From: Hassallia byssoidea VB512170 | GTDB taxonomy: Bacteria; Cyanobacteriota; Cyanobacteriia; Cyanobacteriales; Nostocaceae | Direction of reading: 5' to 3' | Assembly: GCF_000817785.2 (NCBI RefSeq) | Contig: NZ_JTCM02000025.1 | Location: 38,869 to 75,461, forward strand | Length of the DNA: 36,593 bases | In this document: piece after piece, positions 10,644 to 32,102 of the stretch | Position numbering within the stretch: position 1 is the stretch's first letter | How the letters are laid out: every line of letters starts with the position of its first letter | The notes under the pieces: model-generated | The model's input: only the letters and a program-made list of their open reading frames with translations | Database searches by the model: none | What the model was told of the DNA's origin: nothing | Program-made: the position numbers and the translations under genes

Positions 10644-11177
10644 CTAAACTACCTGATTTTTCACGTGATAAAAAAGCAACACAACACCGTTTTTGTAAAT
10701 CTTGCTGTTGGTGAGTTCCAGTGAAGTCTGCTTGACTACTCCGGAAAAAAGTGGAATCCCTGAGCCTAATAGTAAAGGATTTAACTTCAAGATTATCTCG
10801 TCAATCAAGTTTTCGGCAAATAGCATTGTAGCTAAATCAGCGCCACCGCAGAGGTATATATCTTTACCCGTTTCATCCTTCAACGCTCTAACAAATTCAA
10901 CAACCTTCTCGGAAACGATCGCCACATTCTCATCCGGACTTTCCTTCATCGTGCGGGAGATAACATACTGCTTCATACTTGGGTAAGGATTGGTTACACC
11001 TTCTTTTAACCCCACCTCGTATGTCTTGCGTCCCATCAAAACGGCATCAAACCACTTGTAAGACTCCAAATAATCAGCCACATGCTCACCTTGAAAAAGA
11101 AAACCGTCAAATGAGCCGTCTTGGTGGGCAATAAACCCATCAACGGTGCAAGCTACGTAATACTTCAGTTTTCGCAT
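10644..11177 (-). CDS. Dihydrofolate-reductase-like (RibD C-terminal) protein
   Basis: A 177-residue protein of the RibD-C/DHFR-like superfamily: KYYVACTVDGFIA at the N-terminus, the VLMGRKTYEVG loop, and IYLCGGADLATML plus LLLGSGIPLF for NADPH binding. Members reduce pterin or pyrimidine-like substrates, but most small ones, including this, have no known substrate. I start at ATG 11177 because AGGAGG lies 6 bases upstream. The longer reading to 11249 runs into a dispersed repeat and adds 24 arginine-rich residues with no homology signal. Confidence 0.85.
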   Translation of the reverse strand: MRKLKYYVACTVDGFIAHQDGSFDGFLFQGEHVADYLESYKWFDAVLMGRKTYEVGLKEGVTNPYPSMKQYVISRTMKESPDENVAIVSEKVVEFVRALKDETGKDIYLCGGADLATMLFAENLIDEIILKLNPLLLGSGIPLFSGVVKQTSLELTNSKIYKNGVVLLFYHVKNQVV

Positions 11178-11199
11178 ATCTAACCTCCTGGTTCGTAAT

Positions 11200-11270
11200 G
11201 AGCGGTTTACCCTTCGGGTTCGCCAGTCGCTCATGGGGGAGACCCCCAAGACCGCGCTGGCTCACCGCTC
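11200..11270. repeat. Multi-stem palindromic element
   Basis: Outer arms GAGCGGT (11200-11206) and ACCGCTC (11264-11270) enclose ACCCTTCGGGT, a CCAG...CTGG pair and GGGGGAGACCCCC. The inner part (GCCAGTCGC...GGGG...CCC...GCGCTGG) is shared with 18354-18396, so this is a dispersed cyanobacterial repeat. It lies just upstream of the DHFR-like gene. Confidence 0.8.
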
Positions 11271-15220: not shown

Positions 15221-15234
15221 GTAGTCAGTAATAC
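15221..15234 (+). promoter_or_regulatory. Candidate NtcA site (GTA-N8-TAC) upstream of URC operon
   Basis: GTAGTCAGTAATAC matches the NtcA core GTAN8TAC, 130 bp upstream of the URC1 start. A TATATC sequence lies about 20 bp downstream as a rough -10 box. Nitrogen control of a uracil-degrading operon is plausible, but the core is short enough to occur by chance in intergenic DNA. Confidence 0.4.
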
Positions 15235-15363
15235 TGTTAGTGCGTTTACGCAATATATCAAGTCATTAGCACAAACTTTATAAAAGTGAAAAGGGTGTCT
15301 TGGCAGTTGACAAATCCCTAGTAAATAATAGTTGATAAAAAGATAACAAAAAATAAATTGACT

Positions 15364-16620
15364 ATGCCAAAACAAAACAGCGTTTCTCGGCATATTGTTC
15401 TGACTTCTCATCCCAGTCGTTCTGGTCCCAAACCGATCGCGATTAACTGGGGTGCTGCTGACCCGATGCAACGAGGTCCAGTGATTGCTACTTTAACAAA
15501 GTCGGCGCACCGCAATGTTATAGGCACTCATTCGGGTGGTTATGCGGTTTATCGCGCTTTAGCAGTGGCTAGCGGATCGCTGCAATCAGATCATATAGCG
15601 GATTTAACCAACACGTCTCCAACAGAGCGTATTGGACCATATCCAAGCTGGTCAGTTGCTGATAAAATCGTCTCGCTTGACCCTTATGGAGCGATCGCCT
15701 CTGAGGTGTTTGCATCATACTACGAACAGGGATATGATATCCGTCCGACGATCGCCATCACCAAAGCGCACATTAATATGCCCGAACTGCAAGAAGCGAT
15801 CGCCAAAGGACGCTTGCAAGTTGATGGTAAAATTATGAAACCCGGTGGCGATTTGGTGGTAACTAAAGCCGCAATTGAGCCGGTTTGGTATTTACCAGGA
15901 CTTGCCAAGCGGTTTAATATCACTGAAGGCGAATTGCGTCGCGCTTTATTTGAACAAACTGGGGGAATGTTTCCAGAATTGGTCACTAGATCGGATTTGG
16001 AGGTGTTTTTGCCGCCAATTGGAGGTTTGACGGTGTATATTGTCGGTGATTTAGAAGCGATCGCCGATCCGAATAAGCCTTTAGCTGTCAGAGTACATGA
16101 TGAGTGCAACGGTTCGGATGTCTTCGGTTCGGATATCTGCACTTGTCGTCCTTATTTGGTACACGGAATTGAGGTGTGCGTGCAAACAGCACAAGAAGGA
16201 GGTGCTGGGGTTATTGTTTATTGTCGCAAAGAGGGTCGCGCCCTTGGTGAGGTTACGAAATTTTTGGTTTACAATGCTCGCAAGCGTCAAGAAGGAGGCG
16301 ATCGCGCTGATGCCTACTTTGAGCGTACTGAATGTGTGGCAGGTGTCCAAGATATGCGCTTCCAAGAACTAATGCCGGATGTACTGCATTGGTTGGGCAT
16401 TACTCGCATTGACCGCATGGTATCTATGAGTAATATGAAGTTCGATGCCATAACTCAGTCGGGAATTGAGATTGTTGAACGAATTGCGATTCCCGATGAT
16501 TTGATTCCTCAAGATGCGCGGGTGGAAATTGAAGCGAAGAAAGCTGCTGGATATTTTACCACAGGGGATGTGTTAGATGCAAACAGTTTAGCTGATGTGA
16601 AGGGACGAGGTTTGGAGTAG
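15364..16620 (+). CDS. GTP cyclohydrolase II-like protein, URC1 type (uracil catabolism)
   Basis: A 418-residue protein whose second half is a RibA-type domain. The zinc cysteines are Cys248, Cys259 and Cys261 (VHDECNGSDVFGSDICTC), spaced as in RibA, and CRKEGRALGEVTK corresponds to the RibA HRQEGRGIGL motif. The roughly 230-residue N-terminal extension is absent from riboflavin RibA and typical of the URC1/urg1 family. URC1 proteins act on a uracil nucleotide rather than GTP in the URC pathway described in Lachancea yeast. URC4 and Upp follow directly, which decides the assignment. I start at ATG 15364 rather than TTG 15358. Confidence 0.88.
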   Translation: MPKQNSVSRHIVLTSHPSRSGPKPIAINWGAADPMQRGPVIATLTKSAHRNVIGTHSGGYAVYRALAVASGSLQSDHIADLTNTSPTERIGPYPSWSVADKIVSLDPYGAIASEVFASYYEQGYDIRPTIAITKAHINMPELQEAIAKGRLQVDGKIMKPGGDLVVTKAAIEPVWYLPGLAKRFNITEGELRRALFEQTGGMFPELVTRSDLEVFLPPIGGLTVYIVGDLEAIADPNKPLAVRVHDECNGSDVFGSDICTCRPYLVHGIEVCVQTAQEGGAGVIVYCRKEGRALGEVTKFLVYNARKRQEGGDRADAYFERTECVAGVQDMRFQELMPDVLHWLGITRIDRMVSMSNMKFDAITQSGIEIVERIAIPDDLIPQDARVEIEAKKAAGYFTTGDVLDANSLADVKGRGLE

Positions 16621-16631
16621 GAAGTAGGGAG

Positions 16632-16817
16632 ACAGGGGGACAGGGGGACAGGGGGACAGGGGGAAGAACTCCCGTACAGACGTTCCACACCAAACGTCTC
16701 TACCTAACTCCTCACTCTTAACTCCTAACTCCTCACTCCCCATCCCCCCCTCTCCCCATCCCCCACTCCTCCACTCCTCCACTCCCCCACTTTCCCACTC
16801 CCCACTCCCCACTCCCC
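16632..16817. repeat. Tandem GGGGGACA and CCCCACT repeats with hairpin copy 3
   Basis: Four GACAGGGGGA units (from 16632) are followed by a GTACAGACGTT...AACGTCTCTAC hairpin (16674-16703). A pyrimidine tract of ACTCCTCACTCCC/CCCCACT heptads runs to 16817. It lies between URC1 and URC4, splitting an otherwise compact operon without an obvious terminator. Confidence 0.8.
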
Positions 16818-16851
16818 ATTCCCATTATTTACGGAGATACGAACCGCCAAG

Positions 16852-18087
16852 ATGCCAAGAACGCCAAGTTTAGAGGGTAAGGAGTTGATTGCATATCTTC
16901 GTTCTGCTTACGCTATTCGGCAACGTTGTATGCAATTGTTTGTATTGGCGACTGAAGATAAGTTGCCAAATTTTGGTTGTGATTTGATGCAGTTGAATAG
17001 GGTAGCAGATTATGTGATTTCGGTGATGCGGGGTGAGTACCCAAATTTGGATATTCCGTTTCACAGTCGTTGGCGACATTTTGAGGCTGGAGGTGTGCGA
17101 CGTTTAACTCAGTTGGATGAGATGTTGGTGGGAATGACACCGCTGCAAAAAGCGGCAGCGAAGTTTGATTTGGCGATTATTAGTGTTTTGCTGGATGCGG
17201 GAGCGGGGAATAGTTGGGGTTATTATGAGCAGGAGACTAATTTGGGTTTTGGGCGAAGTGAAGGTTTGGCTGTGGCTAGTTTCCGGATGTTTTGTCAAGG
17301 TGCTTTTTCTAGTGACCAAAAACAATCCTTAAAAGCGGATGCTCAAAAGTTGCAATTATTAACAGAAGAAGAATTGGCGGATGGGTTTCAGGTAAATGCC
17401 GAAAATCCTTTGGTGGGGGTTTCTGGGCGGTTGAAGTTGTTGCAAAAATTAGGAGAAGCTTTAGTATCTTCTCCTGATTTATTTGGCGAAGTAAATCCGC
17501 GTCCGGGAAATATGGTAAATTACTTAATGGGAAAATCTGAGAATCAGGCGATCGCTGCCACAACAGTTTTCGATGCAGTTTTAGAAGGACTGAGTGATAT
17601 TTGGTCTGGACGAGTTGAAGTTGCTGGAGTTAACTTGGGGGATGTCTGGTTTCACCCGGCTGTTGGTGATGATAATTTAGTGCCATTTCATAAGCTGTCT
17701 CAATGGCTTACCTATTCTTTGTTGGAACCTCTACAGGAACTCGGTTTAGAAATTACTAATTTAGATGCGCTGACTGGTTTGCCAGAATATCGGAATGGAG
17801 GGTTATGTCTGGATTTGGGACTTATCAAGGTTAAAGATTCACAGGTTTTGCGATCGCCTCATTTAGTATCATCAGAAGTTATAGTTGAATGGCGTGCAAT
17901 GACTGTGATTTTGTTGGATTGCATTGCGGTTAGAGTTCGGGAAAAGTTGGGTATGAGTGCTGAGGAATTGCCACTGGTGAAAATCCTCCAAGGTGGAACT
18001 TGGACAGCAGGACGAAAAATTGCCGCAGAACTCAGAACAGGTGGTGTCCCCCCTATACAAATAGAAAGCGATGGGACTGTATTCTAA
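16852..18087 (+). CDS. DUF1688 (URC4/urg3 family) uracil-catabolism protein
   Basis: A 411-residue soluble protein of the DUF1688 family, known as URC4 in yeast and urg3 in fission yeast. URC4 is required for pyrimidine-ring degradation by the URC route but its reaction is not established. Recognisable features are IPFHSRWRHFEAGG, a long LLDAGAGNSWGYYEQ block, PRPGNMVNYL, and the C-terminal LPLVKILQGGTWTAGRKIA. Length is normal and the frame is uninterrupted. The ATG at 16852 sits inside a 'ccgccaagatgccaag' repeat, so true initiation could be one of the downstream TTG codons near 16885. It lies between URC1 and upp. Confidence 0.88.
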   Translation: MPRTPSLEGKELIAYLRSAYAIRQRCMQLFVLATEDKLPNFGCDLMQLNRVADYVISVMRGEYPNLDIPFHSRWRHFEAGGVRRLTQLDEMLVGMTPLQKAAAKFDLAIISVLLDAGAGNSWGYYEQETNLGFGRSEGLAVASFRMFCQGAFSSDQKQSLKADAQKLQLLTEEELADGFQVNAENPLVGVSGRLKLLQKLGEALVSSPDLFGEVNPRPGNMVNYLMGKSENQAIAATTVFDAVLEGLSDIWSGRVEVAGVNLGDVWFHPAVGDDNLVPFHKLSQWLTYSLLEPLQELGLEITNLDALTGLPEYRNGGLCLDLGLIKVKDSQVLRSPHLVSSEVIVEWRAMTVILLDCIAVRVREKLGMSAEELPLVKILQGGTWTAGRKIAAELRTGGVPPIQIESDGTVF

Positions 18088-18431
18088 TTGTAAGTAGTTA
18101 CAGTCAGTTTGAATTAAGGAACGAGTTATGAATCAGCGATCGCATTTGGTTGCTGATGATTGTTTTGTTTGTTTTTTTAATATATGAGAATGAGCGCAGA
18201 ATTAATGGAGAACGAACCGCAGAGGACGCAGAGAACACAGAGTTTGGAAGAGTTTGGGAGAGTTTTTGCGTAAGTTTTAGAAGTAATAAAATCTCTCTTC
18301 CCCATTACCTATTACCCATTCCCCATTCCCCACTCCCCATTCCCCCAACGGGAGAGCCAGTCGCCTCAACGCGGGGAACCCGCGCACGGCGCTGGACTCA
18401 CCATTCCCCATTCCCCACTTTATATAAAAAT
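18088..18431. other. Repeat-filled gap between URC4 and upp
   Basis: No gene is supported. It holds a 'gaaccgcagagg-cgcagagaa' dispersed repeat (about 18213-18242) and CCCCATT/CCCCACT heptads (18300-18345 and 18402-18418). It also holds a palindromic element at 18346-18402 (GAGCCAGTCGC...GGGGAACCC...GCGCTGGACTCA) related to 11200-11270 and to the repeat at 1-170. An in-frame extension of upp across this region is repeat sequence, not protein. Confidence 0.75.
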
Positions 18432-19064
18432 ATGGCAAAAGTAACTTTAATTGACCATCCGTTGATTCAGCACAAATTAACGCTGATGCGTAAAGCTGAA
18501 ACTAGTACGGCAAAATTTCGCGTTCTTTTGAAAGAAATTAGCTTGTTGTTAGCTTATGAAGTGACGCGGGATTTACCGCTGAAATATGAAGTGATAAAAA
18601 CGCCATTAGCGCCAATGAATGCACCAGTGCTGGCACCGGAAAAAAAGCTGGTGTTAGTTTCGATTATGCGGGCAGGACAGGGCATTTTAGATGGAATGCT
18701 GGAGTTAATGCCATCGGTTAGGGTGGGACATGTTGGTTTATATCGCGATCCAAAGACGTTGATTCCGGTGGAGTATTATTTTAAGATTCCCGATGACGTG
18801 GATAAGCGAGATATGCTGGTGGTCGATCCGATGTTGGCTACTGGCAATTCAGCGGTGGCAGCGGTGGAAAGACTGAAATCAACTAATCCGATGTCGATTC
18901 GGTTTGTCTGCTTGCTTGCTGCACCAGAAGGCATTGAGCATTTCTGCGCGGTACATCCTGATGTGCCTTTGTATACGGCAGCAATTGATGACCATTTGGA
19001 TGAACACGGTTATATTATACCTGGTTTGGGAGATGCAGGCGATCGCTTGTTTGGTACAAAGTAA
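18432..19064 (+). CDS. upp: Uracil phosphoribosyltransferase (URC6)
   Basis: A 210-residue Upp that joins uracil and PRPP to make UMP. The PRPP loop [12 protein letters not shown] is at 130-141. The uracil-binding tail [16 protein letters not shown] is intact, as are SIMRAGQGI and [13 protein letters not shown]. Start at ATG 18432; earlier in-frame codons lie in repeats. In general this is a salvage enzyme, but directly after URC1 and URC4 it is the URC6 function, forming the nucleotide on which the pathway acts. Confidence 0.96.
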
Positions 19065-19862: not shown

Positions 19863-20795
19863 TTACTGACGCTTTTGATTTTCGGGAAAATAAGCGATAC
19901 CCAAAGCTGCTGGTGGTGTGGATTTGCCTTTTTTGCTAACGAGAGCAAATAAGGCGATCGCGTAAGGTAACATTATCAAAAATTGATAGGGAATATTCGC
20001 ACCCAATGCCTGTATTCTTAATTGTAAAGCTTCTGTCGCCCCAAACAACAAACAAGCTAAGGCAGTACTTACAGGATGCCATCTACCAAAAATTAAAGCA
20101 GCGATCGCAATAAATCCTTTGCCAGCACTCATCCCTTCCGCAAAAAACTTTATCTGTACTAAAGTAAGATAAGCCCCTCCCAAACTAGCAAGACATCCAC
20201 CGATTATCACAGCAGTGTAACGCACAGTTTGCACTGAAACACCAGCCGTATCCGCTGCTTGTGGATATTCTCCTACAGCTCGCAAAGTTAGACCAAAGCT
20301 AGTATAAAACAATATGTATGTAGTTAAAGTAACTATTATTAATAATAAATATACGAGAATATCTTGTTGTAACAAAGCGCCAATTAGGGGAATATTGGCA
20401 AAACCGGGAATAATAATTGCTGCAATTCCGGGCAATTGTTGAGCTATACCACCACTAAATATTAGCCGTGCTAAAAAAGATGTTAACCCAGCTGCGACAA
20501 GATTAATTGCTAACCCAGATACCAACTGATCGACGCGCAAAGTTACACATAAAAAAGCATGAAGTAAACCGACGATTCCCCCAGCAATCAAGGCAGCGAT
20601 TACACCAATCCACGGATTACCTATGTAAAAGGTGGCAGCAGCACTGGTGAAAGCACCTGTAAGTAACATTCCTTCTAAGCCAATATTTAGCACTCCTGAA
20701 CGTTCAGAATAAAGTCCTCCCAAAGCAGCGAATGCGAGGGGGACGGCTAAACGCAAGCTAGCAACGAGGTAATCTGAGAAGAGGGCATTGGGCAT
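19863..20795 (-). CDS. Nucleoside ABC transporter permease (NupQ/YufQ-like), set 1
   Basis: A 310-residue inner-membrane permease of the BPD_transp_2 family, with eight or more hydrophobic helices. It carries the family's N-terminal motif LGGLYSERSGVLNIGLEGMLLTGAF and the cytoplasmic coupling region LRAVGEYPQAADTAGVSV. It closely follows the layout of B. subtilis NupQ, partner of NupP, NupO and the BMP lipoprotein in guanosine/nucleoside uptake. It is the last gene of transporter set 1, 73 bp after the first permease, with a strong hairpin between them. It is uninterrupted and looks functional. Confidence 0.92.
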   Translation of the reverse strand: MPNALFSDYLVASLRLAVPLAFAALGGLYSERSGVLNIGLEGMLLTGAFTSAAATFYIGNPWIGVIAALIAGGIVGLLHAFLCVTLRVDQLVSGLAINLVAAGLTSFLARLIFSGGIAQQLPGIAAIIIPGFANIPLIGALLQQDILVYLLLIIVTLTTYILFYTSFGLTLRAVGEYPQAADTAGVSVQTVRYTAVIIGGCLASLGGAYLTLVQIKFFAEGMSAGKGFIAIAALIFGRWHPVSTALACLLFGATEALQLRIQALGANIPYQFLIMLPYAIALFALVSKKGKSTPPAALGIAYFPENQKRQ

Positions 20796-20868: not shown

Positions 20869-21924
20869 TTAATCAGCGTTTATCGGCGGTTTAATTACTT
20901 TTATCTTTTTTTCCATCGCTAGACTAATGGCAATAAACAATACAGTCAAACCTTGAATAGCATAAACTACAGTCACGGGTACACCTGCGCTGCGTTGCAT
21001 GACATTCGCACCACTACGTAGAGCCGCGAAAAATAGAGAAGTTAATATTACACCGAAAACACTACCGCGACTGAGGAAAGCGATCGCGATCGCATCAAAT
21101 CCATAACCGGATGATACTTGTTCAAACAAGCGATATTTCAACCCCATCACCTCAGAAGCACCCGCTAAACCAGCTAAACCACCCGCTAATGCCATTACTA
21201 ACATAATCGTGCGTTGGACGGAAATACCTGCGTAACGGGCAGCGATGAAGTTGAATCCGACGGCGGTGATTTGGTATCCTAGAGGCGATCGCATCAACAA
21301 TATCCACAATATCCCTGCCGCGATTAATCCCAACAAAATTCCCGCATGTGCCAAACTTCCTGGTAAAATAATCGGTAACTGTGCAGATTTGGCTATTAAT
21401 GGCGAATATGGACTAGGCGCGTTTGCTGCTTTCAAAGGATTCTGCACCAGATAGCTGACTAAGTTGATGGCAATGTAGTTTAGCAGCAACGTGGTGATTA
21501 CCTCATTCACTCCCCGCACTGCTTTCAGATAACCGGGAATCCAACCCCAAACTCCACCAAAAACAAACCCTGCGAAAAGCGCTAAAGGTATGTGAATAAA
21601 TGCGGGGAAATTTTGCACGTATAACCCTATCAAAGCACTTCCCAAAGCACCGAGATAAATTTGTCCTTCTCCACCAATATTAAATTGACCGGCACGCAAC
21701 GCGACTAGTACGCCTAAACTAGTTAATAATAGCGGTGCCATTTTCGTAAGCGTGTTACCAAAGCCAAAGTAAGTTGAGAGAGATTCTTGAAATAAGGCAG
21801 TGTATGCAGCGATTGGGTTAGCGCCGGCGAGTATGATGAGAATTGCACCGACAATGAGAGAAGATGCGATCGCAATTAGCGGTGAGATAATTGGTAGCAA
21901 TTGGATACGGTTAGTTGCAGTCAT
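20869..21924 (-). CDS. Nucleoside ABC transporter permease (NupP/YufP-like), set 1
   Basis: A 351-residue permease with about eight to ten membrane helices. It has LRAGQFNIGGEGQIYLGALGSAL, the WGWIPGYLKAVRGVNEVITTLLLNYIA block and the coupling segment ITAVGFNFIAARYAGISV, all typical of NupP. I start at ATG 21924 (MTATNRIQ): the longer reading from 21978 overlaps the neighbouring gene and includes a HIP1 site. It is separated from its ATPase gene by two toxin-antitoxin-like insertions. This intact copy shows what the broken set-2 counterpart at 29276-30334 should look like. Confidence 0.92.
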   Translation of the reverse strand: MTATNRIQLLPIISPLIAIASSLIVGAILIILAGANPIAAYTALFQESLSTYFGFGNTLTKMAPLLLTSLGVLVALRAGQFNIGGEGQIYLGALGSALIGLYVQNFPAFIHIPLALFAGFVFGGVWGWIPGYLKAVRGVNEVITTLLLNYIAINLVSYLVQNPLKAANAPSPYSPLIAKSAQLPIILPGSLAHAGILLGLIAAGILWILLMRSPLGYQITAVGFNFIAARYAGISVQRTIMLVMALAGGLAGLAGASEVMGLKYRLFEQVSSGYGFDAIAIAFLSRGSVFGVILTSLFFAALRSGANVMQRSAGVPVTVVYAIQGLTVLFIAISLAMEKKIKVIKPPINAD

Positions 21925-21958
21925 TTTGGGACATAGATTAGGGCAATGCGATCGCACT

Positions 21959-22153
21959 TCATCTGCTTTTGTTTTCAAGGTGTTGTGACTGAATCGTTGG
22001 TATTTCCTCAGCGGTTAAAGTGACGATTTTCCCATCTTGCATAATACTAATAGATTGACCAAGCTTGCGATGTCGTTCAATCGCTTCTGCAATTGCTGCT
22101 TTTACTCCAGTATTAATTTTACTGTGTAAGGTTCTCATTTCTTCTTCAGTCAT
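21959..22153 (-). CDS. Small partner protein of the zeta-like kinase
   Basis: A 64-residue protein starting at ATG 22153, with GGAGG 7 bases upstream. It overlaps the 3' end of the zeta-like gene by 8 bp and is therefore translationally coupled to it. It is mostly helical and charged (MTEEEMRTLHSKINTGVKAA), ending in a beta-like SIMQDGKIVTLTAEEIP. I do not recognise the family. It could be an antitoxin, though in the classical epsilon-zeta modules the antitoxin gene precedes the toxin. Confidence 0.7.
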   Translation of the reverse strand: MTEEEMRTLHSKINTGVKAAIAEAIERHRKLGQSISIMQDGKIVTLTAEEIPTIQSQHLENKSR

Positions 22154-22709
22154 TGATTTGCCTCCAAATTTCATCTATATAAATTATAGATTGCTGATTA
22201 ATAATACGTTCAGCTACTAACCTGGGTTCTGACTTGGAATTGTTATAAACCATCCAGCCATCACATAGCGGTAAATACAAATCAATCAGATTTCTTCGTC
22301 CTCTTTCATAGCGTCTGCGAATCACCTGTTCTGGAATCGAGTGTCCCCCACTAGCAACCCGTCTGGCTACCCTTTCGACTGCCAAATCAGCGCTTTGCAG
22401 CCAGAAATAAATTAAGTTAATCGTGTAACCTTTTGCTTTACAATCAATTATAAATGGCGCAAAAGTTCTAGCTGCTAGTGTGGTTTCAAACGCAAAATCC
22501 CTTCTCAAATTAGATAATATCCGCAGTCGCTGAATCATCAAACGTCCTGCCTCAATAGCCATAGACTCTGGATTGAATGGAGAAAGTCCAGCTGCGATCG
22601 CATCTGCGTTCACATACTCAAAGCAGTCGATAAAATTTGGCAGCAAACTCATAGAAACAGTCGTTTTACCTGAACCATTTGCACCACCAATAACGTATAT
22701 ACTCGGCAT
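22146..22709 (-). CDS. Zeta-toxin-like P-loop kinase
   Basis: A 187-residue P-loop protein. The Walker A is GGANGSGKTT (residues 8-17), followed by YVNADAIAAGLSPFNPES and the FAFETTLAART motif characteristic of zeta toxins and related kinases. The RRVASGGHSIPEQVIRRRYERG arginine cluster is typical of the lid. Zeta toxins phosphorylate UDP-N-acetylglucosamine, blocking wall synthesis; cyanobacterial homologues are mostly untested. I start at ATG 22709 because the upstream in-frame extension is translated dispersed hairpin (22729-22759). It is inserted within the set-1 transporter gene order. Confidence 0.85.
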   Translation of the reverse strand: MPSIYVIGGANGSGKTTVSMSLLPNFIDCFEYVNADAIAAGLSPFNPESMAIEAGRLMIQRLRILSNLRRDFAFETTLAARTFAPFIIDCKAKGYTINLIYFWLQSADLAVERVARRVASGGHSIPEQVIRRRYERGRRNLIDLYLPLCDGWMVYNNSKSEPRLVAERIINQQSIIYIDEIWRQIND

Positions 22710-22728
22710 ACTAATTATAAAAGGCGCG

Positions 22729-22759
22729 GTAGAGACGTTCCACACGCCCACGTCTGTAC
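22729..22759. repeat. GTAGAGACGT hairpin, copy 4
   Basis: GTAGAGACGT...ACGTCTGTAC with a longer unpaired centre (TCCACACGCCC), just upstream of the zeta-like gene and after hicB. Confidence 0.8.
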
Positions 22760-22795
22760 AAAAGTTAGGAGTTATTACTCCAGACTTGCTAGCAA

Positions 22796-23119
22796 TCAAT
22801 TTTTAGACTCAGATAACCGTTTTTCTATCCAAGAATTCAAACTTTGTCCTTCTTTCTTTGCTTTGATTGCAATTTGTTTATGTAAACTCGGATTTATTCT
22901 GACTACAAACTTACCTGAAAATGGTTTTTCAGGTTCCTCACCACGTAATGAGCAAAAGTCCAAATAAACATCTACAGAATCATGAAATGCTTGCTTCAAT
23001 TCTGCTACGGTGTTGCCTTGAAAAGTTATTACATCTCTAAGATTAATTACTTCACCATGAAAAATTTCTGCGTCATCATCAAATTCTACAATTGCTTCAT
23101 AACCTTTATAATTCATCAT
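22796..23119 (-). CDS. hicB: HicB-family antitoxin
   Basis: A 107-residue HicB. The N-terminal degraded RNase-H-like fold shows YEAIVEFDDDAEIFHGEVINL, FQGNTVAELKQAFHDSVDVYL and DFCSLRGEEPEKPFSGKF. The C-terminal ribbon-helix-helix is VVRINPSLHKQIAIKAKKEGQSLNSWIEK, the DNA-binding part that autoregulates hicAB (quoted as landmarks: FVVRINPSLHKQIAIKAKK). Two ATG codons (23119, 23116) are possible starts. It overlaps the truncated hicA fragment upstream. The antitoxin is intact although its toxin is not, as expected if the toxin was lost first. Confidence 0.9.
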   Translation of the reverse strand: MMNYKGYEAIVEFDDDAEIFHGEVINLRDVITFQGNTVAELKQAFHDSVDVYLDFCSLRGEEPEKPFSGKFVVRINPSLHKQIAIKAKKEGQSLNSWIEKRLSESKN

Positions 23120-23255: not shown

Positions 23256-24746
23256 TTAGGAGTTATTACTCCCCTCGTCCCCCCCTTGTCCCCCTCTTCC
23301 CCCTGCCATTAACAAACCAATTTCCTCGACTGTCGCTGTCGCTGCATCTAAAATATCGAGAAACTCACCTCTGTAAATTACCGCAATGCGATCGCTCATT
23401 GCCATCACTTCCTCTAACTCAGTAGAAATATACAAAATTGCCGCACCGCGTTTTCTTTCTGCTAACAAGCGAGAATGCACTGCTTGAGTTGCCCCCACAT
23501 CTAATCCCCGCGTCGGTTGCATTGCGACAATTAACAGCGGTTCCCCCGTCAATTCTCGCGCTAACACCACTTTTTGTTGATTTCCTCCCGACAACTGATT
23601 TACCTTCACATCTTCCCCCGTTGCCCGAATATCAAACTCTTGCATTGCAGACTTAGCGTGATTTTTAATTGCTTCTTTCTGCAATAAAAAGCGACGAGAA
23701 AAAGGCAACTTTTTAAAAGCTTTTAAAATCAGGTTTTGGGCAATACTAAATTGCAATACCAAACCGATTTTTTGCCTATCTTCCGGAATGTAACCGATAT
23801 TTTTTACGGCATCGATTTTACCGCTTTTAACAGATTGCAAATTTGTTATGGCATCTGCTAATTCACGCTGTCCATTGCCATCTACACCAGCAATTCCTAA
23901 AATTTCTCCGGCTCTAAGTTGAAATGAAACATCACGCACAGCCGTAATATTTCTTTCATCTACAACTTGCAAATTCTGCACCGATAAGACAACTTTACCT
24001 GGTGAAACGGCTGATTTATTTAACTGTAAATCAACTTCACGTCCCACCATCAATTCTGCTAATTGTTGAGGTGTAGCTTCTTTAGTATTTGTATTTGCTA
24101 CTACCTTTCCCCGTCGCAACACCGTTACTGTATCGCAGAGATTCATCACTTCATCAAGCTTGTGACTGATAAAAATAATTGTGTTTCCAGCTGCTGCAAG
24201 TTGACGGAGAATAGCAATTAAAGATTTCACTTCGGGGGGTGTTAATACTGCTGTCGGTTCATCCAAAATCAACAACTTTGCTTGACGGTAAAGAACTTTG
24301 AGAATTTCTACTCGCTGTTGCGCTCCTACTGGTAAATCTGCTACTCTCATACTGGGGTCAATTTCTAATTTATAAGCTTGGGATAAAGCGGTGATTTCCT
24401 GTTGTTTTTGCCGCAGATTTAAACGCCAGCTTTTCTCAGTTCCCAGAATGATATTTTCGGTGACGGTTAACTGAGGTACAAGCATGAAGTGTTGGTGAAT
24501 CATGCCGATACCTTGATTAATTGCGCCTTTTGAAGATGCAAAATTTACTGCTTTATCTTCAAGATAAATTTGACCTTCGTCAGGTTGATATAAACCACTA
24601 ATAATGTTCATTAAAGTGGTTTTACCTGCACCATTTTCACCTAAAATTGCGTGGATTTTTCCGGTTTCAATACTTAGGCTAATGTTATCGTTAGCAATAA
24701 ATGAGCCGAAGCGTTTGGTGATTTTTTCTAAACGTAAATATGACAT
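23256..24746 (-). CDS. Nucleoside ABC transporter ATPase (NupO/YufO-like), set 1
   Basis: A 496-residue double ATPase of the sugar/nucleoside (CUT2-like) type. The N-terminal domain has Walker A GENGAGKTT (36-44), signature LPVGAQQRVEIL and Walker B LLILDEPTAVLTP. The C-terminal domain has a degenerate Walker A (GVDGNGQRE), signature LSGGNQQKVVLAREL and PTRGLDVGA. It powers the two set-1 permeases. The last residues (AGGRGGQGGDEGSNNS) are encoded by a GGGGGACAAGGGG repeat and look like a repeat-derived tail. It lies 171 bp after the BMP lipoprotein gene and is followed by the hicA/hicB insertion. Confidence 0.93.
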   Translation of the reverse strand: MSYLRLEKITKRFGSFIANDNISLSIETGKIHAILGENGAGKTTLMNIISGLYQPDEGQIYLEDKAVNFASSKGAINQGIGMIHQHFMLVPQLTVTENIILGTEKSWRLNLRQKQQEITALSQAYKLEIDPSMRVADLPVGAQQRVEILKVLYRQAKLLILDEPTAVLTPPEVKSLIAILRQLAAAGNTIIFISHKLDEVMNLCDTVTVLRRGKVVANTNTKEATPQQLAELMVGREVDLQLNKSAVSPGKVVLSVQNLQVVDERNITAVRDVSFQLRAGEILGIAGVDGNGQRELADAITNLQSVKSGKIDAVKNIGYIPEDRQKIGLVLQFSIAQNLILKAFKKLPFSRRFLLQKEAIKNHAKSAMQEFDIRATGEDVKVNQLSGGNQQKVVLARELTGEPLLIVAMQPTRGLDVGATQAVHSRLLAERKRGAAILYISTELEEVMAMSDRIAVIYRGEFLDILDAATATVEEIGLLMAGGRGGQGGDEGSNNS

Positions 24747-24917: not shown

Positions 24918-25964
24918 TTAAACTGTCGCCTTTTTTGCACAGCGCGTATCTTTATTACCATCTTTACAACTTTCAAAAGTTATTTTTTTATCAACAATTT
25001 CCTGTTTTGTATTTAATGCCTTTTGCTTAACTGCTGCTGGAACAATTTCGTTAAAGTTTCCCAAGTTTAAAATATCTGGTCTTTCTAAACCAATTGTATA
25101 TATTTGCCCTTTTAATTGTTTCTGTTTTGCTAATTCTGCTAGATATGCGATCGCTAAATCCATTCGCTTTACAGCACTGGTTAAAACCGCTTTTGGCGCT
25201 ACTTCTAATTGGTCTTTTGTATTCCCAAAAGCATAAACACCTTTATCTGCGGCTGTTTGTAACACGGCTGGAGAGGAATTATCTAACCATTGATAGATGA
25301 CATCAGCGCCAGCAGAAATCAATGCTAAAGTAGCTTCTTTGCCTTTAGCAACATCATTCCAATCACCTGTAAAAGTAGGGAGAATTTGTATATTTGGTTT
25401 AACTGATTTTGCCCCTAATTCAAATCCGCGTAATTCATCTTCAGTAGCGGGGAATTTCTCGCCAGCAATGTAAGCCATTTTGTTAGATTTGGTTAGGGAA
25501 GCGCCAATAATTCCACACAAATAGCTGACTTGGAGATGATCTATTCGCAAAGCGGCAATATTTTCTCCTTTAAGATTACCATTCACGCAGACAAAAAACG
25601 TGTTGGGAAATTGGGCAGCGATTTGTTCTACAGATGCGTCAAATTGTCCGCCGTGGGCAAATATTATATTGTAGCCCCTACGAGCGAAATCACCTAAAGT
25701 TTCGGCTTGGTCTGCTTGCGCGACTTTTTCGACAAAGTTAACTTCTGCACCCAGCTTTTGTTTGGCAAGGTTGACACCTTCGTAACCAGATTGATTCCAG
25801 GCTTTGTCAGTGATGGTACCAGGAAGTGCGATCGCTATCTTAAATTTTTCACCACTAGCTGCCGTGGGTGTCGTTGTTTGGTTGCTACTGCAAGCTTTTA
25901 GCAGTAAACTGGTGCTAAAGGCAACTGAACTATATAGAAATTGACGCCGATTCAATACCGCCAT
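24918..25964 (-). CDS. BMP-family substrate-binding lipoprotein, set 1
   Basis: A 348-residue periplasmic binding protein of the BMP/PnrA family. The N-terminus has a twin-arginine motif (NRRQFLYSS) followed by a hydrophobic stretch and a lipobox ending at Cys25 (LLLKAC), implying Tat export and lipid anchoring. Family blocks: KIAIALPGTITDKAWNQSGYEG, YNIIFAHGGQFDASV, LRIDHLQVSYLCGIIGA and ADVIYQWLDNSSPAV. BMP proteins bind nucleosides or related purines. It starts set 1 and is divergent from the DoxX-like gene. Confidence 0.92.
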   Translation of the reverse strand: MAVLNRRQFLYSSVAFSTSLLLKACSSNQTTTPTAASGEKFKIAIALPGTITDKAWNQSGYEGVNLAKQKLGAEVNFVEKVAQADQAETLGDFARRGYNIIFAHGGQFDASVEQIAAQFPNTFFVCVNGNLKGENIAALRIDHLQVSYLCGIIGASLTKSNKMAYIAGEKFPATEDELRGFELGAKSVKPNIQILPTFTGDWNDVAKGKEATLALISAGADVIYQWLDNSSPAVLQTAADKGVYAFGNTKDQLEVAPKAVLTSAVKRMDLAIAYLAELAKQKQLKGQIYTIGLERPDILNLGNFNEIVPAAVKQKALNTKQEIVDKKITFESCKDGNKDTRCAKKATV

Positions 25965-26835: not shown

Positions 26836-27330
26836 ATGAGTACATCAAAGACAGTACAACAATTGCAGGCAGAATGGATAACACCAGAAAATTTTCGCCG
26901 TTACGGGCAAGTTATTTTTGCCAGTAAGGACGGGAAAGCTTACGATACTAAAGATGCCCAGTTAAACTTGCAAAACGGAATTCCTCGCTTTTATATTGTG
27001 CGGTTGCAACGCCAAGGGCGAAAGTTTTACAAAATAACTCGGCATATGCAATGCACTCAATGTTTGGGTTCTTTGTCAGGAAAGGATTGGTTAATTGCGG
27101 TTTGTCCTCCTGATAATAATGTTGATGAACCAGCTTTAGAAGAGATTGCAGTTTTCCGCATTCCGGGAAATTGTTTTATTAAGTTAGAGGTGGGAACTTG
27201 GCACGCAGGACCATATTTTGAGCATGAGTTTGTCGATTTTTATAATTTAGAATTGAGTGATACGAATGTGGTGGATCATTTCACTCATGATTTTGTTAAG
27301 AGTCATCAGTTAGAGTTTGAGATGGTCTAG
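26836..27330 (+). CDS. Ureidoglycolate-lyase-like (AllA family) protein
   Basis: A 164-residue cupin-like protein with the AllA order of motifs: an N-terminal ITPENFRRYGQVI (family 'F..YG.VI'), a central RHMQCTQCLGSLSGKDWLIAVCPP where AllA has its 'H....Q.F.P..G..F...V', and GTWHAGPYFEHEFVDFYNLEL near the end. Ureidoglycolate lyase releases urea and glyoxylate, the last step of allantoin (purine) breakdown. Other allantoin genes are absent here, so an alternative substrate is possible. Its stop is 1 bp from the convergent set-2 permease stop. Confidence 0.8.
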   Translation: MSTSKTVQQLQAEWITPENFRRYGQVIFASKDGKAYDTKDAQLNLQNGIPRFYIVRLQRQGRKFYKITRHMQCTQCLGSLSGKDWLIAVCPPDNNVDEPALEEIAVFRIPGNCFIKLEVGTWHAGPYFEHEFVDFYNLELSDTNVVDHFTHDFVKSHQLEFEMV

Positions 27331-27331
27331 T

Positions 27332-28234
27332 TTAATGAGTAGGACGAAAAGGTTCACCCAAAGATGCGGGTGCTACTAGTTGAATGCGCGTGGCATCGCG
27401 TGAGATAATCACCAATACCACGATAGTAGCTAAGTAGGGCAACGCAGATAAAAGATAAGGAGAAATATCAAATCCCAGTCCTTGCACTATCAACTGTATC
27501 GCACTCACGCCGCCAAATAAGTAAGCACCCAAGAGAATTATAATCGGTTTCCAGGTGGCAAAAACTACCAAAGCGATCGCAATCCATCCTCGTCCTGCTG
27601 TCATATTTTCCGCCCACAGCGGCGTATACGCAAGCGAGAGATAACAAATGCGCGATCCCCAGCCATTGCCCCACCAAACATTACCGCATTCATAGCGCAC
27701 TTTCACAACAGGCAAACCCAAAGCATCCGCTGCTGATGGTGATTCACCCACACTCCGCAGCACCAACCCTAGCCGTGTTTTACGCAAAAACCATGAAACT
27801 AAAATTACCAAAATGATTGATAAATATACTACAAGATCTTGGTTCAATAGAGGTATTGATTTGTTCATTTGTTGCAGTCCGGTAATTGTTTTACCTACGT
27901 AGTCAGCACCGACAAAAGCACTGAGTCCCGAAGCAAAAATAGTCAGGGCTAAACCGGTAGCGACTTGATTCGCACCGATGGTAATTGTTAGCACAGCATG
28001 AATTAAAGCGATCGCTATTCCCGATATTAGTGCTATCAATAACCCTAAATAAATATTACCTGTAACAACGGTGACGATAAAACCAGCTACAGCCCCAATT
28101 AACATCATCCCCTCAACGCCAAGATTTAACACCCCTGATTTTTCCGTTACTAATTCGCCTAGTGCTGCTAAAATCAGAGGTGTAGCTGCCCGCAGAGTAT
28201 CACTAATTATTGGGCTGAATGTTTGGATGTTCAT
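27332..28234 (-). CDS. Nucleoside ABC transporter permease (NupQ-like), set 2, internally frameshifted
   Basis: A 300-residue BPD_transp_2 permease opening with TPLILAALGELVTEKSGVLNLGVEGMM and ending in the usual LPYLATIVVLVII helix. Between LPVVKVRY and YLSLAYTPLWAEN the residues read ECGNVWWGNGWGSRIC, which fits no helix of this family. Shifting one base there gives VMFGGAMAG, the expected sequence. So an extra G near 27684 and a compensating change near 27640-27650 have garbled about 15 residues while keeping the frame. It starts inside the end of the deacetylase gene with a 32-bp overlap. It is probably impaired, unless this is a sequencing error. Confidence 0.85.
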   Translation of the reverse strand: MNIQTFSPIISDTLRAATPLILAALGELVTEKSGVLNLGVEGMMLIGAVAGFIVTVVTGNIYLGLLIALISGIAIALIHAVLTITIGANQVATGLALTIFASGLSAFVGADYVGKTITGLQQMNKSIPLLNQDLVVYLSIILVILVSWFLRKTRLGLVLRSVGESPSAADALGLPVVKVRYECGNVWWGNGWGSRICYLSLAYTPLWAENMTAGRGWIAIALVVFATWKPIIILLGAYLFGGVSAIQLIVQGLGFDISPYLLSALPYLATIVVLVIISRDATRIQLVAPASLGEPFRPTH

Positions 28235-29159
28235 CTGTAACCGCAGGTGTTACTGTCGGTGAAGGTACTGTTGCCATTTGTTCTTTATCTTGTATTTGCA
28301 ACAATTCAGGTATTGTTACAAATCGATAACCTTCCGCCTTCAAATCGGCAATCATTTGTGGTAATGCTTTGACAGTTTTGGCACGGTTGCCACCACCATC
28401 GTGCATCAATATAATTCCCCCTGGCTTGGCACTTTTGAGTACATTTGTTACCATTCCCGGCACTTGAGGAGAACGGCGTTCTGCGTCACCTGACTCACCA
28501 GACCACATCATTACAGCGTAGTGGTGATTTTTGGCGTAGGCAACCAATCCATTATTCAGGTAGCCTCCAGGTGGACGAAATAGAGTAGTTTTCTCACCTG
28601 TAGTTTTGTAAATAATATCTGCTGTGCGGTCAATTTCTTTAGCCGCCGTTGCAGTATCCATGCGACGATACCAATGGTGCCATGTATGATTGCCAATTAC
28701 ATGACCATCCAGGGCAACTTGTTTAGCAATTTTGGGAAACGCTTGCACCATTGACCCAACCATAAAAAATGTCGCTTTTACGTTGTTTTTCTTCAAAATT
28801 TCTAACACCTGTACCGTGTTTTTTGGTCCAGGTCCATCATCAAAAGTGAGAGCGACAACTTTATCAGTTGGTTTCAGTTTCGCTTGATAAATAGTTGTTC
28901 CCTGAAATAATTTTGGCACATCAGAAATCACATTTGTACTTGGGGCTACAGCTTGCGCCGATGTACTCATCACTTTGCCCAAATTCGCAACGTGTTGATG
29001 TTTGGGATTTTTTAAAGTTGTGTTTTTCGGCGTTTGAATTGCCAATTGATGATTAACTTTGCTTGCAGGTACAACTAAACTTAAAGCAAAACTTCCAGCA
29101 GCTGCAACTGAAGTAATTACTCCTATTAGTACAATTTTAGATAATTTCTTTCTGGACAC
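28203..29159 (-). CDS. Polysaccharide deacetylase (NodB domain), membrane anchored
   Basis: A 318-residue carbohydrate esterase family 4 protein. It has an N-terminal hydrophobic anchor or signal (about residues 9-31), a low-complexity linker, then the NodB domain: LTFDDGPGP with catalytic/metal Asp107-Asp108, metal-binding GNHTWHH (His158, His162), the RPPGGYLNN loop and ILMHDGGGN near the end. It likely de-N-acetylates peptidoglycan or another polysaccharide in the periplasm. Its place between two permease genes of a nucleoside transporter is odd; functionally it does not belong there and may be an insertion. A heptad repeat lies just upstream. Confidence 0.92.
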   Translation of the reverse strand: MSRKKLSKIVLIGVITSVAAAGSFALSLVVPASKVNHQLAIQTPKNTTLKNPKHQHVANLGKVMSTSAQAVAPSTNVISDVPKLFQGTTIYQAKLKPTDKVVALTFDDGPGPKNTVQVLEILKKNNVKATFFMVGSMVQAFPKIAKQVALDGHVIGNHTWHHWYRRMDTATAAKEIDRTADIIYKTTGEKTTLFRPPGGYLNNGLVAYAKNHHYAVMMWSGESGDAERRSPQVPGMVTNVLKSAKPGGIILMHDGGGNRAKTVKALPQMIADLKAEGYRFVTIPELLQIQDKEQMATVPSPTVTPAVTDEHPNIQPNN

Positions 29160-29176
29160 TTAAATCTCCTCACAAT

Positions 29177-29275
29177 TTGATGGTTGATAGTGGATAGTGG
29201 ATAGTTGATGGTTGATGGTTGATGGTTGATGGTTGTCAAAAGTTCCCACTAACCACTATCCACTATCCACTAACC
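29177..29275. repeat. TTGATGG / GTGGATA heptad tandem repeat
   Basis: Seven-base units TTGATGG and GTGGATA run from 29177 to about 29235, and their reverse complement (CACTATC units) follows at 29247-29275. The halves could form a long hairpin. It fills the gap between the broken permease and the deacetylase, marking the likely insertion junction. Confidence 0.85.
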
Positions 29276-30334
29276 CTATCGTCTAATTTGCAGTCGGTTA
29301 TAAATTAGCATATCTGCCGCCAAAAGAAAGAAAAATAAAATACCTTGAAATAAACTCGCTATGGCGTTAGAAAGTGCAAGTTTAATCTGCAATAATTCAC
29401 CTCCTACGTAAAGAAGCGCCATCAACAAACTAGATAAAATGATCCCTAAGGGGTTTAACCGTCCGATAAATGCGGCGATGATGGCAGTATAACCGTAACC
29501 GGGAGAAATGGTAGGGCGTAGTTGACCAATTGGACCTAGAACTTCGCACGCACCAGCTAAACCGGCTAATCCACCAGCCAGGAGTAGACTAAGCCAAATT
29601 ATGCGATCGCTCTTTATCCCAGCATACTCCGCTGCGTTTAAACTTGAACCAACTACCCGCACGCTGAAGCCAAAAAATGTCAGCCGCAGCACTCCCCAAA
29701 TTAACACAGCCGCAAAAAAAGCGAAAATTACTCCCCAATGCAACCGCGTACCCGCAATTAATGATGGTAAACTGGCAAATTCACTAAAAGGTGCAGATTC
29801 CGGAAAGTTAAATCCTTGAGGGTCTTTTAACTGTCCGCGCACCAAGTAATTTAAAATACTAATTGCAACATAATTTAACATCAAACTTGTGAGTATTTCG
29901 TTGGCATTAAATCGCACCTTCAATCAAGCGGGAATACTCCCCCAAATCGCACCACCTAACACGCCAGCAATCAAACTAAGTAAGAGTATTCCATAATTAT
30001 TTACATCGGGAAATGCCAAAGCAATAATACTACTAAAAATCGCCCCAATCGTCAATTGTCCTTCTGCGCCAATATTCCACACCTTTGCTTGAAAACATAC
30101 CGCTAAACCAACAGCAATTAATAAAATTGGTGCAGCTTTCACCGTTAATTCTGTCAATTGATAAAAGCTACTTAAAGGCGTAATAAATAGAGTTTGTAAA
30201 GCAGTAATCGGCGACTTACCCAATAAAGCAAATAGTAAGATTCCGACAGTCACCGTTGCTAAAAGTGCTACTAAAGGTGAAAGTATTTGCCAAGTTATTG
30301 ATGGTACACTACGGGGTTCAAATTTAATTAACAT
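29276..30334 (-). pseudogene. Nucleoside ABC transporter permease (NupP-like), set 2, with in-frame stop
   Basis: One continuous reading frame of 353 codons interrupted by a single TGA at 29926-29924. The sequence reads GGAIWGSIPA, stop, LKVRFNANEILTSLMLNYVAI. In the intact set-1 gene the matching block is GGVWGWIPGYLKAVRGVNEV, and homologues typically have an aromatic residue at the stop, so TGG to TGA (one base) explains it. Both halves otherwise keep the family pattern (VCFQAKVWNIGAEGQLTIGA; VRVVGSSLNAAEYAGI). Restart at the TTG right after the stop seems unlikely to give a working permease. It follows its ATPase gene by 128 bp. Confidence 0.88.
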
Positions 30335-30462
30335 TAGCTTTTTATGCGTTATGATATCAGCAGAAAAACTCTGCGTCCCTCAGCGCTGACTTTGCGCTCC
30401 TCTGCGTTTAAAAACGCTAATATTTGACGCAAAGCTGTATTTAGAATTACTTTCTCAGGCTA

Positions 30463-31974: not shown

Positions 31975-32066
31975 CCCTCTTCCCTCTTCCTTGGTGTCCT
32001 TGGCGCCTTCTCCTTCAAAGACGCCAAGGGCGAACGCGGTTCGTTTCTCATTTCACTCAAATGCTT

Positions 32067-32088
32067 AAGCGCTTCAGCGCTTACTACG
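32067..32088 (-). repeat. AAGC-loop-GCTT-ACTACG hairpin, third copy
   Basis: AAGCGCTTCAGCGCTT followed by ACTACG, 15 bp beyond the stop of the BMP lipoprotein gene. Same element and same position relative to a minus-strand gene end as 2304-2325. Confidence 0.7.
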
Positions 32089-32102
32089 GCATTTTTAACT
32101 TC

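Follow-up and report, generated by a model that had tools for sequence, protein, structure and literature searches.

We analysed a 36,593-nucleotide stretch of the genome of the filamentous cyanobacterium Hassallia byssoidea VB512170 (contig NZ_JTCM02000025.1, positions 38,869 to 75,461; hereafter the window). Three genes lie in a row on its + strand: URC1, URC4 (DUF1688) and a uracil phosphoribosyltransferase (UPRT). Their sequences point to a URC-type pyrimidine catabolic operon that would recover nitrogen from uracil, a reading to which we assign a probability of about 0.75. We further consider it fairly probable, with somewhat less confidence, that the DNA-glycosylase-like Qng1 superfamily has a second functional branch in URC4/DUF1688, acting on an open-ring ureido-ribonucleotide and not on queuosine and closing the gap in the URC pathway, and that the operon of filamentous cyanobacteria is nitrogen-controlled via an NtcA-type site, making pyrimidines a regulated nitrogen source. 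The operon and its upstream site comprise the following features.

15221 to 15234, no strand: GTAGTCAGTAATAC, a GTA-N8-TAC palindrome of NtcA-consensus type, starting 143 bases before the URC1 ATG
15364 to 16620, + strand: URC1 (urg1 type), predicted uridine-nucleotide cyclohydrolase with a PF12471 N-domain and a GTP cyclohydrolase II (GCHII)-like zinc domain, from Pfam, NCBIfam and PDB identity
16852 to 18087, + strand: URC4 (urg3, DUF1688), predicted Qng1-like N-glycosidase on (phospho)ribosylurea, from PF07958, an AlphaFold2 model, Foldseek and hhalign
18432 to 19064, + strand: URC6/upp, UPRT (uracil + phosphoribosyl pyrophosphate (PRPP) to UMP), from PF14681 and TIGR01091

A URC1-URC4-UPRT array in a filamentous cyanobacterium

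The initial annotation had claimed a URC1-URC4-URC6 core in a cyanobacterium, and both the family matches and the linkage of the genes across loci bear this out. In Pfam, the URC1 frame (15358-16620, first ATG at 15364) matched GTP_CH_N PF12471 with 289.6 bits over residues 12-200 and GTP_cyclohydro2 PF00925 with 63 bits, while URC4 (16852-18087) matched DUF1688 PF07958 with 520.2 bits over model positions 1-420 of 420. The open reading frame (ORF) 18150-19064 matched UPRTase PF14681 with 252.6 bits and, in NCBIfam, upp TIGR01091 with 262.4 bits (cut-off 208.35). Because the UPRT domain begins only at residue 101 of the 304 in this ORF and an ATG opens at 18432, we placed the gene at 18432-19064; residues 1-94 are a conceptual translation of repeat-like intergenic DNA. 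The Hassallia genome, a 7.5 Mb draft in 219 contigs, contains one URC1 above cut-off and one DUF1688. Among the matches listed, the window URC4 shared 91% identity with its counterpart in Plectonema radiosum and 89% with the one in Tolypothrix brevis.

We fetched 85 URC4 loci (60 cyanobacterial, 25 other), consisting of the best 80 from a genome scan, which lean to cyanobacteria, and five plasmid loci. Measured between gene midpoints on either strand, URC1 lay within 3.5 kb of URC4 in 75 of the 85 loci and UPRT did so in 68; the two were present together in 61, comprising 42/60 cyanobacterial and 19/25 other loci. The array is thus conserved beyond chance. Ten loci had no URC1 nearby: URC1 was found elsewhere in the genome in all eight whose genomes were searched, and of the remaining two, L037 opens at the edge of a contig, and in L081 URC1 lies some 10 kb upstream. 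A bacterial URC version had been presented as a new place to look, a claim that does not stand, as such clusters are already in print; NCBI names 9 of 13 URC4-relative plasmid rows 'URC4/urg3 family protein'.

The distribution of the set is patchy, with a DUF1688 match in 33 of 386 cyanobacterial genomes. Broken or split DUF1688 copies occur in other cyanobacteria, with internal stops in G354 and G334, two pieces in G360 and one stop in G039, which suggests repeated loss of the pathway.

URC4 is predicted to be a Qng1-like N-glycosidase

A likeness of motifs between URC4 and Qng1 led us to a Pfam scan, a fold comparison and a profile-profile comparison. In Pfam, Q_salvage PF10343 (the Qng1 family) appeared as a weak second family in 6 of 14 URC4s of a first alignment, A1 (best E 5.8e-4, matches listed to E 10), and in 30 of 57 URC4s of a larger one, A2, at E ≤ 1 (best E 1.6e-5). 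A2 consists of the window and 56 of the best 80 loci, with near-copies left out together with L086 (in-frame stops), L083, L108 and L111. At the level of sequence, URC4 is related to the PF10343 family and is not a member of it.

An AlphaFold2 model of URC4 built from the 57 sequences reached a mean pLDDT of 94.0 and a pTM of 0.92. When this model was compared with 350,542 PDB chains using Foldseek, all 11 matches at E ≤ 0.001 were DUF2419/Qng1 chains (E 7.3e-9 to 1.0e-7), with TM-scores of 0.73-0.79 by target length and 0.58-0.63 by query length; the next match had an E-value of 0.26. The modelled fold is thus common to URC4 and Qng1/DUF2419 (7u07, 7u91, 7ulc, 7u5a, 7ugk). Two DNA glycosylases, 1xqp (E 2.2) and 1lmz (E 2.7), were listed among the non-significant matches.

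Profile-profile comparison with hhalign aligned URC4 with four fetched and aligned Qng1 relatives over 298 columns (E 4.5e-7, probability 92.6), whereas the controls gave E 0.97 (URC4 against URC1) and E 0.27 (Qng1 against URC1). This alignment placed URC4 K281 on Qng1 K199 and E312 on D231 (7u07 numbering), the two positions mutated in the deposited Qng1 complexes K199C and D231N, according to their PDB titles. Q284, Y313, R314 (Lys in Qng1), E346, R348 and T351 were also in register, and these six residues, K281 and E312 were invariant in 57/57 URC4s. The two families share the motif K-x-x-Q ... L-T-x3-[DE]-Y-[RK] ... E-x-R-A-x-T, which includes the K199 and D231 positions. They differ in length (411 residues in URC4, about 320 in Qng1), in the Glu of URC4 at Qng1 Asp231, and in an invariant N-terminal H-x-R-W block that is URC4's own. 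Their contexts differ as well: URC4 belongs to pyrimidine catabolism, whereas the Qng1 relatives in L116 and L118 have tgt-like ORFs as neighbours (tgt named by eye).

According to the portion of PMC7530994 available to us, it is the URC4 product that breaks ribosylurea down to urea in Lachancea kluyveri, and Qng1 is described in an excerpt of PMC11130926 as a nucleoside hydrolase that cleaves Q and Q monophosphate. Because the fold and register are Qng1-like, the yeast protein turns ribosylurea into urea and Qng1 has hydrolase chemistry, we propose that URC4 is a ribosylurea N-glycosidase. From sequence and model, its most likely reaction would be N-glycosidic hydrolysis of ribosylurea, with the 5'-phosphate as the probable substrate form.

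URC4 could instead combine a Qng1 fold with another chemistry on the URC1 product, such as ureido hydrolysis or a phosphorolytic or transferase reaction, which we regard as unlikely, although it is the strongest competitor. The invariant URC4 residues outside the common motif (H71, R73, W74, D115, E137, D264, W384 and R388) and the extra length reflected in the lower TM-scores by query length would suit such a reaction, and a product of ribose 1-phosphate would likewise agree with the phosphopentomutase gene that adjoins the operon in L110. Against this, the two positions altered in the Qng1 complexes correspond to invariant residues of URC4, and the yeast URC4 is reported, in the accessible part of PMC7530994, to produce urea from ribosylurea.

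Several points weigh against assigning the N-glycosidase reaction to URC4. The window URC4 had no PF10343 match at E ≤ 1 in the Pfam scan, and no Qng1 was found among PDB sequences by URC4 sequence or profile search; the sole profile match was a MAGE-domain protein at E 0.72. URC4 is only 15-16% identical to Qng1 and about 90 residues longer, and the hhalign E-value comes from a single comparison (probability 92.6) in which Qng1 was represented by only four rows. A modelled fold in common is no proof of a common reaction. Moreover, as far as sequence shows, URC1 could act on either UTP or UMP, and URC4 could accordingly meet a mono- or triphosphate or free ribosylurea. Separately, short DARPin/ankyrin matches of URC4 by sequence (around residues 93-119, best E 0.0017) were discarded, being absent when a profile was used.

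Our searches of the open PMC literature listed no paper linking URC4/DUF1688 to Qng1/DUF2419, which is not proof of novelty; as far as those searches show, the link is not in print. URC4 was the URC enzyme whose chemistry we found nowhere assigned, and it now has a named candidate reaction, K281 and E312 as candidate residues and a precedent in Qng1. If correct, the proposal would link DUF1688, an unexplained family of fungi and bacteria, to glycosidases that until now have been associated with a micronutrient of tRNA.

URC1 probably acts on UTP

URC1 scored 769 bits against PRK07198 in NCBIfam (cut-off 403). Over nearly the whole chain it was 69-70% identical to PDB entries 7eev and 7ej3, titled 'UTP cyclohydrolase'; we reached these titles with our own structure model of URC1, whose mean pLDDT was only 70.5. 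Because the titles of such close homologues name UTP, URC1 is probably this known enzyme, with UTP rather than UMP as its substrate, and at the sequence level nothing visible in the window URC1 would change the reaction. The initial annotation had treated the chemistry of URC1 as an open problem, a view that these titled structures contradict, and its list of substrates for assay (UMP, uridine and GTP) omits UTP.

We aligned the window URC1 with 31 of the 71 URC1 frames of the best 80 loci (76 with the five plasmid loci). The residues aligned to E. coli GCHII C54, C65, C67, Y105, D126 and R128, which we take to be its zinc and catalytic-position residues, were the same in the window and invariant in 32/32 URC1 rows of this alignment (A4). 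A 2021 ACS Catalysis paper named for UTP cyclohydrolase (Zhang et al.) is cited in the part of PMC12507026 available to us.

A candidate NtcA site upstream of URC1

Of the 26 Nostocales-type loci (the window, L036, L038-L060 and L106, assigned by genus name), 24 carried GTA-N8-TAC, the NtcA consensus, in the 320 bases preceding URC1. The N8 cores of these sites took 14 different forms that resemble one another. Among 576 palindrome classes tried in these loci it was the commonest; the next, an A/T-rich class, reached 22. Across 57 loci (the window, 51 other cyanobacterial and 5 plasmid loci), 25 had the site within 350 bases upstream, against a background of 196 in 2888 stretches of 350 bases. 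In an upstream alignment of 20 loci, the site stood out from poorly conserved flanks, and a second conserved block lay near the gene. These patterns suggest NtcA nitrogen control of the Nostocales URC operon.

Other observations count against such control. The Nostocales set was drawn up after a first scan had shown where the sites lie, and outside it the palindrome was present in only 1 of 26 cyanobacterial loci and in none of the five plasmid loci. No clear TAN3T -10 box was seen by eye at the canonical distance (20-24 bases downstream) after the window site, and a divergent TPR gene has the same intergenic region upstream of URC1. In the window as a whole, GTA-N8-TAC occurs 12 times, compared with a shuffle mean of 5.67 (2 of 100 shuffles reached 12).

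Proposed pathway and alternatives

UPRT makes UMP from uracil and PRPP. In the pathway we propose, ordinary kinases would lift UMP to UTP, and URC1, as a zinc cyclohydrolase with a GCHII active site, would hydrolyse the uridine-nucleotide (UTP) ring twice. This would release ribosylurea 5'-phosphate(s) and three-carbon malonic semialdehyde, a split that we infer; ribosylurea and 3-hydroxypropionate in yeast are already in print. URC4, with E312 in place of D231 and K281 in place of K199 as judged from fold and alignment, would then cleave (phospho)ribosylurea hydrolytically at its N-glycosidic bond, yielding urea and ribose (phosphate). Urease would convert urea to ammonia and CO2, and the three-carbon unit would be taken by a CoA-acylating semialdehyde dehydrogenase or a reductase. 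In Nostocales, the upstream GTA-N8-TAC site would bring NtcA nitrogen control, and the adjoining BMP-type ABC transporter would probably import nucleosides. This scheme suggests that filamentous cyanobacteria may treat pyrimidines as a nitrogen reserve.

Genome-wide partners are consistent with the later steps. Urease was present in 32 of the 33 URC4-positive cyanobacteria, including the window genome (alpha subunit at G000:C32:70163-71878, 980.8 bits). MMSDH-family enzymes act on malonic and methylmalonic semialdehyde with CoA. A dehydrogenase gene of this family immediately preceded URC1, in the same orientation, in 8 of 25 non-cyanobacterial loci (L092, L096, L099, L100, L101, L104, L112 and L113), seven of the eight being above the TIGR01722 cut-off of 448.5 and that of L101 just under it at 429.2. 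The chemistry of this family would fit malonic semialdehyde as the three-carbon product. Both lines have points against them: the urease count covers the 33 URC4-positive genomes only, and the MMSDH-URC1 adjacency belongs to Myxococcota- and Bdellovibrio-type loci (0/60 cyanobacterial, 8/85 overall). An MMSDH above cut-off was present in only 15 of the 33 URC4-positive cyanobacteria, the window genome among them.

The same three protein families make up Lachancea kluyveri URC and Schizosaccharomyces pombe urg1-urg2-urg3, and the S. pombe urg genes are clustered like the window operon, as described in the sections of PMC2174524 and PMC3869809 available to us. Compared with the yeast system, the bacterial order is URC1-URC4-UPRT on one strand, and the window has a BMP-type ABC transporter alongside and the GTA-N8-TAC site upstream. 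The window genome encodes urease, whereas yeast uses urea amidolyase, according to the text seen of PMC7530994. The Rut and reductive (Pyd) routes of pyrimidine degradation perform the same overall task, and the URC operon proteins come from other families. In URC the ring is opened on the nucleotide and not on free uracil, unlike in Rut and Pyd. Four pyrimidine degradation routes are named in the excerpt of PMC12507026.

An operon whose main task is pool control, clearing away excess or damaged uridine nucleotides and not supplying nitrogen, seems improbable to us, slightly more so than another chemistry for URC4. Such a role would agree with UTP as the titled URC1 substrate and with the lack of the set in most sampled cyanobacteria (all but the 33 of 386 with DUF1688), which implies that it is not needed for growth. 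Against it, the operon UPRT feeds in free uracil, a transporter is linked to the operon, urease accompanies URC4 in nearly every URC4-positive cyanobacterium and the upstream palindrome is of a nitrogen type; in S. pombe, urg1 transcripts rose more than 100-fold in nitrogen starvation, as reported in the available text of PMC2174524.

Recovery of nitrogen from uracil remains our preferred reading, and the converse possibility, that URC1 is a second riboflavin-pathway GTP cyclohydrolase II in a cluster that is not catabolic, is very improbable. It has in its favour the PF00925 domain, the conserved GCHII-type residues and the usual database name of URC1, 'GTP cyclohydrolase II'; it is countered by scores far under the NCBIfam RibA cut-offs (63.6 against 148 and 56.1 against 205.85 bits), by a separate RibA-type gene on contig C2 of the window genome, by the titles of the close URC1 homologues and by the linkage of URC1 to both UPRT and URC4 in 61/85 loci. 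A grouping of URC1 with riboflavin RibA, which the initial annotation had named as evidence against its own claim, is not what a tree of the GCHII domain gave: a single branch with support 100/100 separated the 32 URC1 rows from 13 RibA rows of cyanobacteria, of which one comes from the window's genome. Family models and tree thus refute URC1 as RibA as far as sequence can.

Adjoining transporters

Downstream of the operon and convergent to it lies a BMP-type ABC transporter set, probably for nucleoside or nucleobase uptake, followed by a further gene on the + strand.

19863 to 20795, - strand: BMP-type ABC transporter permease 2, convergent to the operon (PF02653, 127.2 bits)
20869 to 21978, - strand: BMP-type ABC transporter permease 1 (PF02653, 150.4 bits)
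23256 to 24746, - strand: BMP-type ABC transporter ATPase with two ABC domains (PF00005, 167.9 bits, two stretches)
24918 to 25964, - strand: BMP/PnrA-like substrate-binding protein (PF02608, 186.6 bits)
26836 to 27330, + strand: distant relative of ureidoglycolate lyase, a possible accessory (PF04115, 38.6 bits; NCBIfam AllA, 29.9 bits against a cut-off of 230)

In Azospirillum L031, a transporter of the same make-up comes directly after upp within the run of URC genes. Relatives of the permease and ATPase lay within 9 kb in L031, L035, L103 and 8 of 60 cyanobacterial loci, and at least one transporter component at ≥50% identity lay within 12 kb in 14 of 60. Near full-length orthologues of the substrate-binding protein were found in 8 of 33 URC4-positive and 8 of 353 URC4-negative cyanobacterial genomes, using a threshold of ≥56% identity that was set after inspection of the list, with fragment G385 dropped; any match at E ≤ 1e-20 was found in 22/33 and 40/353, respectively. 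Both genome comparisons ignore kinship. The nearest relative, G300, has URC4 and lacks the substrate-binding-protein orthologue.

A zeta-toxin-like P-loop gene and a HicB-family gene (22146-23119, - strand) lie between the ATPase and permease genes of this transporter. The window also holds a second BMP-type set (27332-33242), in which the permease gene (29276-30334, - strand) is split by one in-frame stop; this set may be inactive, or the stop may be an assembly error. GTA-N8-TAC sites at 30437 and 33464 lie next to its genes.

Other neighbouring genes

Urea is split from a carbinol by the ureidoglycolate lyase family, a chemistry that would suit ribosylurea. A relative of the ureidoglycolate-lyase-like gene directly follows UPRT in L064, and the gene was found in 29 of 33 URC4-positive and 73 of 353 URC4-negative cyanobacterial genomes, a comparison confounded by kinship. 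Because 42 of the 43 genomes in the window's family carry the gene, whether or not they have URC4, we left it unassigned and did not accept it as a fourth URC gene.

Several loci carry genes of nucleoside and nucleobase metabolism near the array, which fit the proposed pathway. Cytosine deaminase was found in the same gene run in L031 (805 bits) and nearby on the other strand in L072 (690 bits). A uridine kinase follows UPRT in L101 and L113, above the NF004018 cut-off and under that of TIGR00235, and the phosphopentomutase gene before URC1 in L110 scored 518 bits. For the DGOK, DctM, homocysteine methyltransferase, Imm11 and AhpC-like neighbours, of which one protein each was scanned, we propose no link.

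In the Microcoleus/Tychonema loci L070, L071, L072 and L076, URC1 and URC4 are separated by a gene of 360-370 residues; that of L072 looks nucleotidyl-cyclase-like by eye. In Okeania (L067:8416-8799), a FolB (dihydroneopterin aldolase) family gene (PF02152, 122 bits) begins about 10 bases after URC4, and genes of similar size follow URC4 in L069 and L083. Upstream in the window, a RibD_C/dihydrofolate-reductase-like gene (10644-11249, - strand, PF01872) has a relative in L034 only (31%) among the 85 URC loci.

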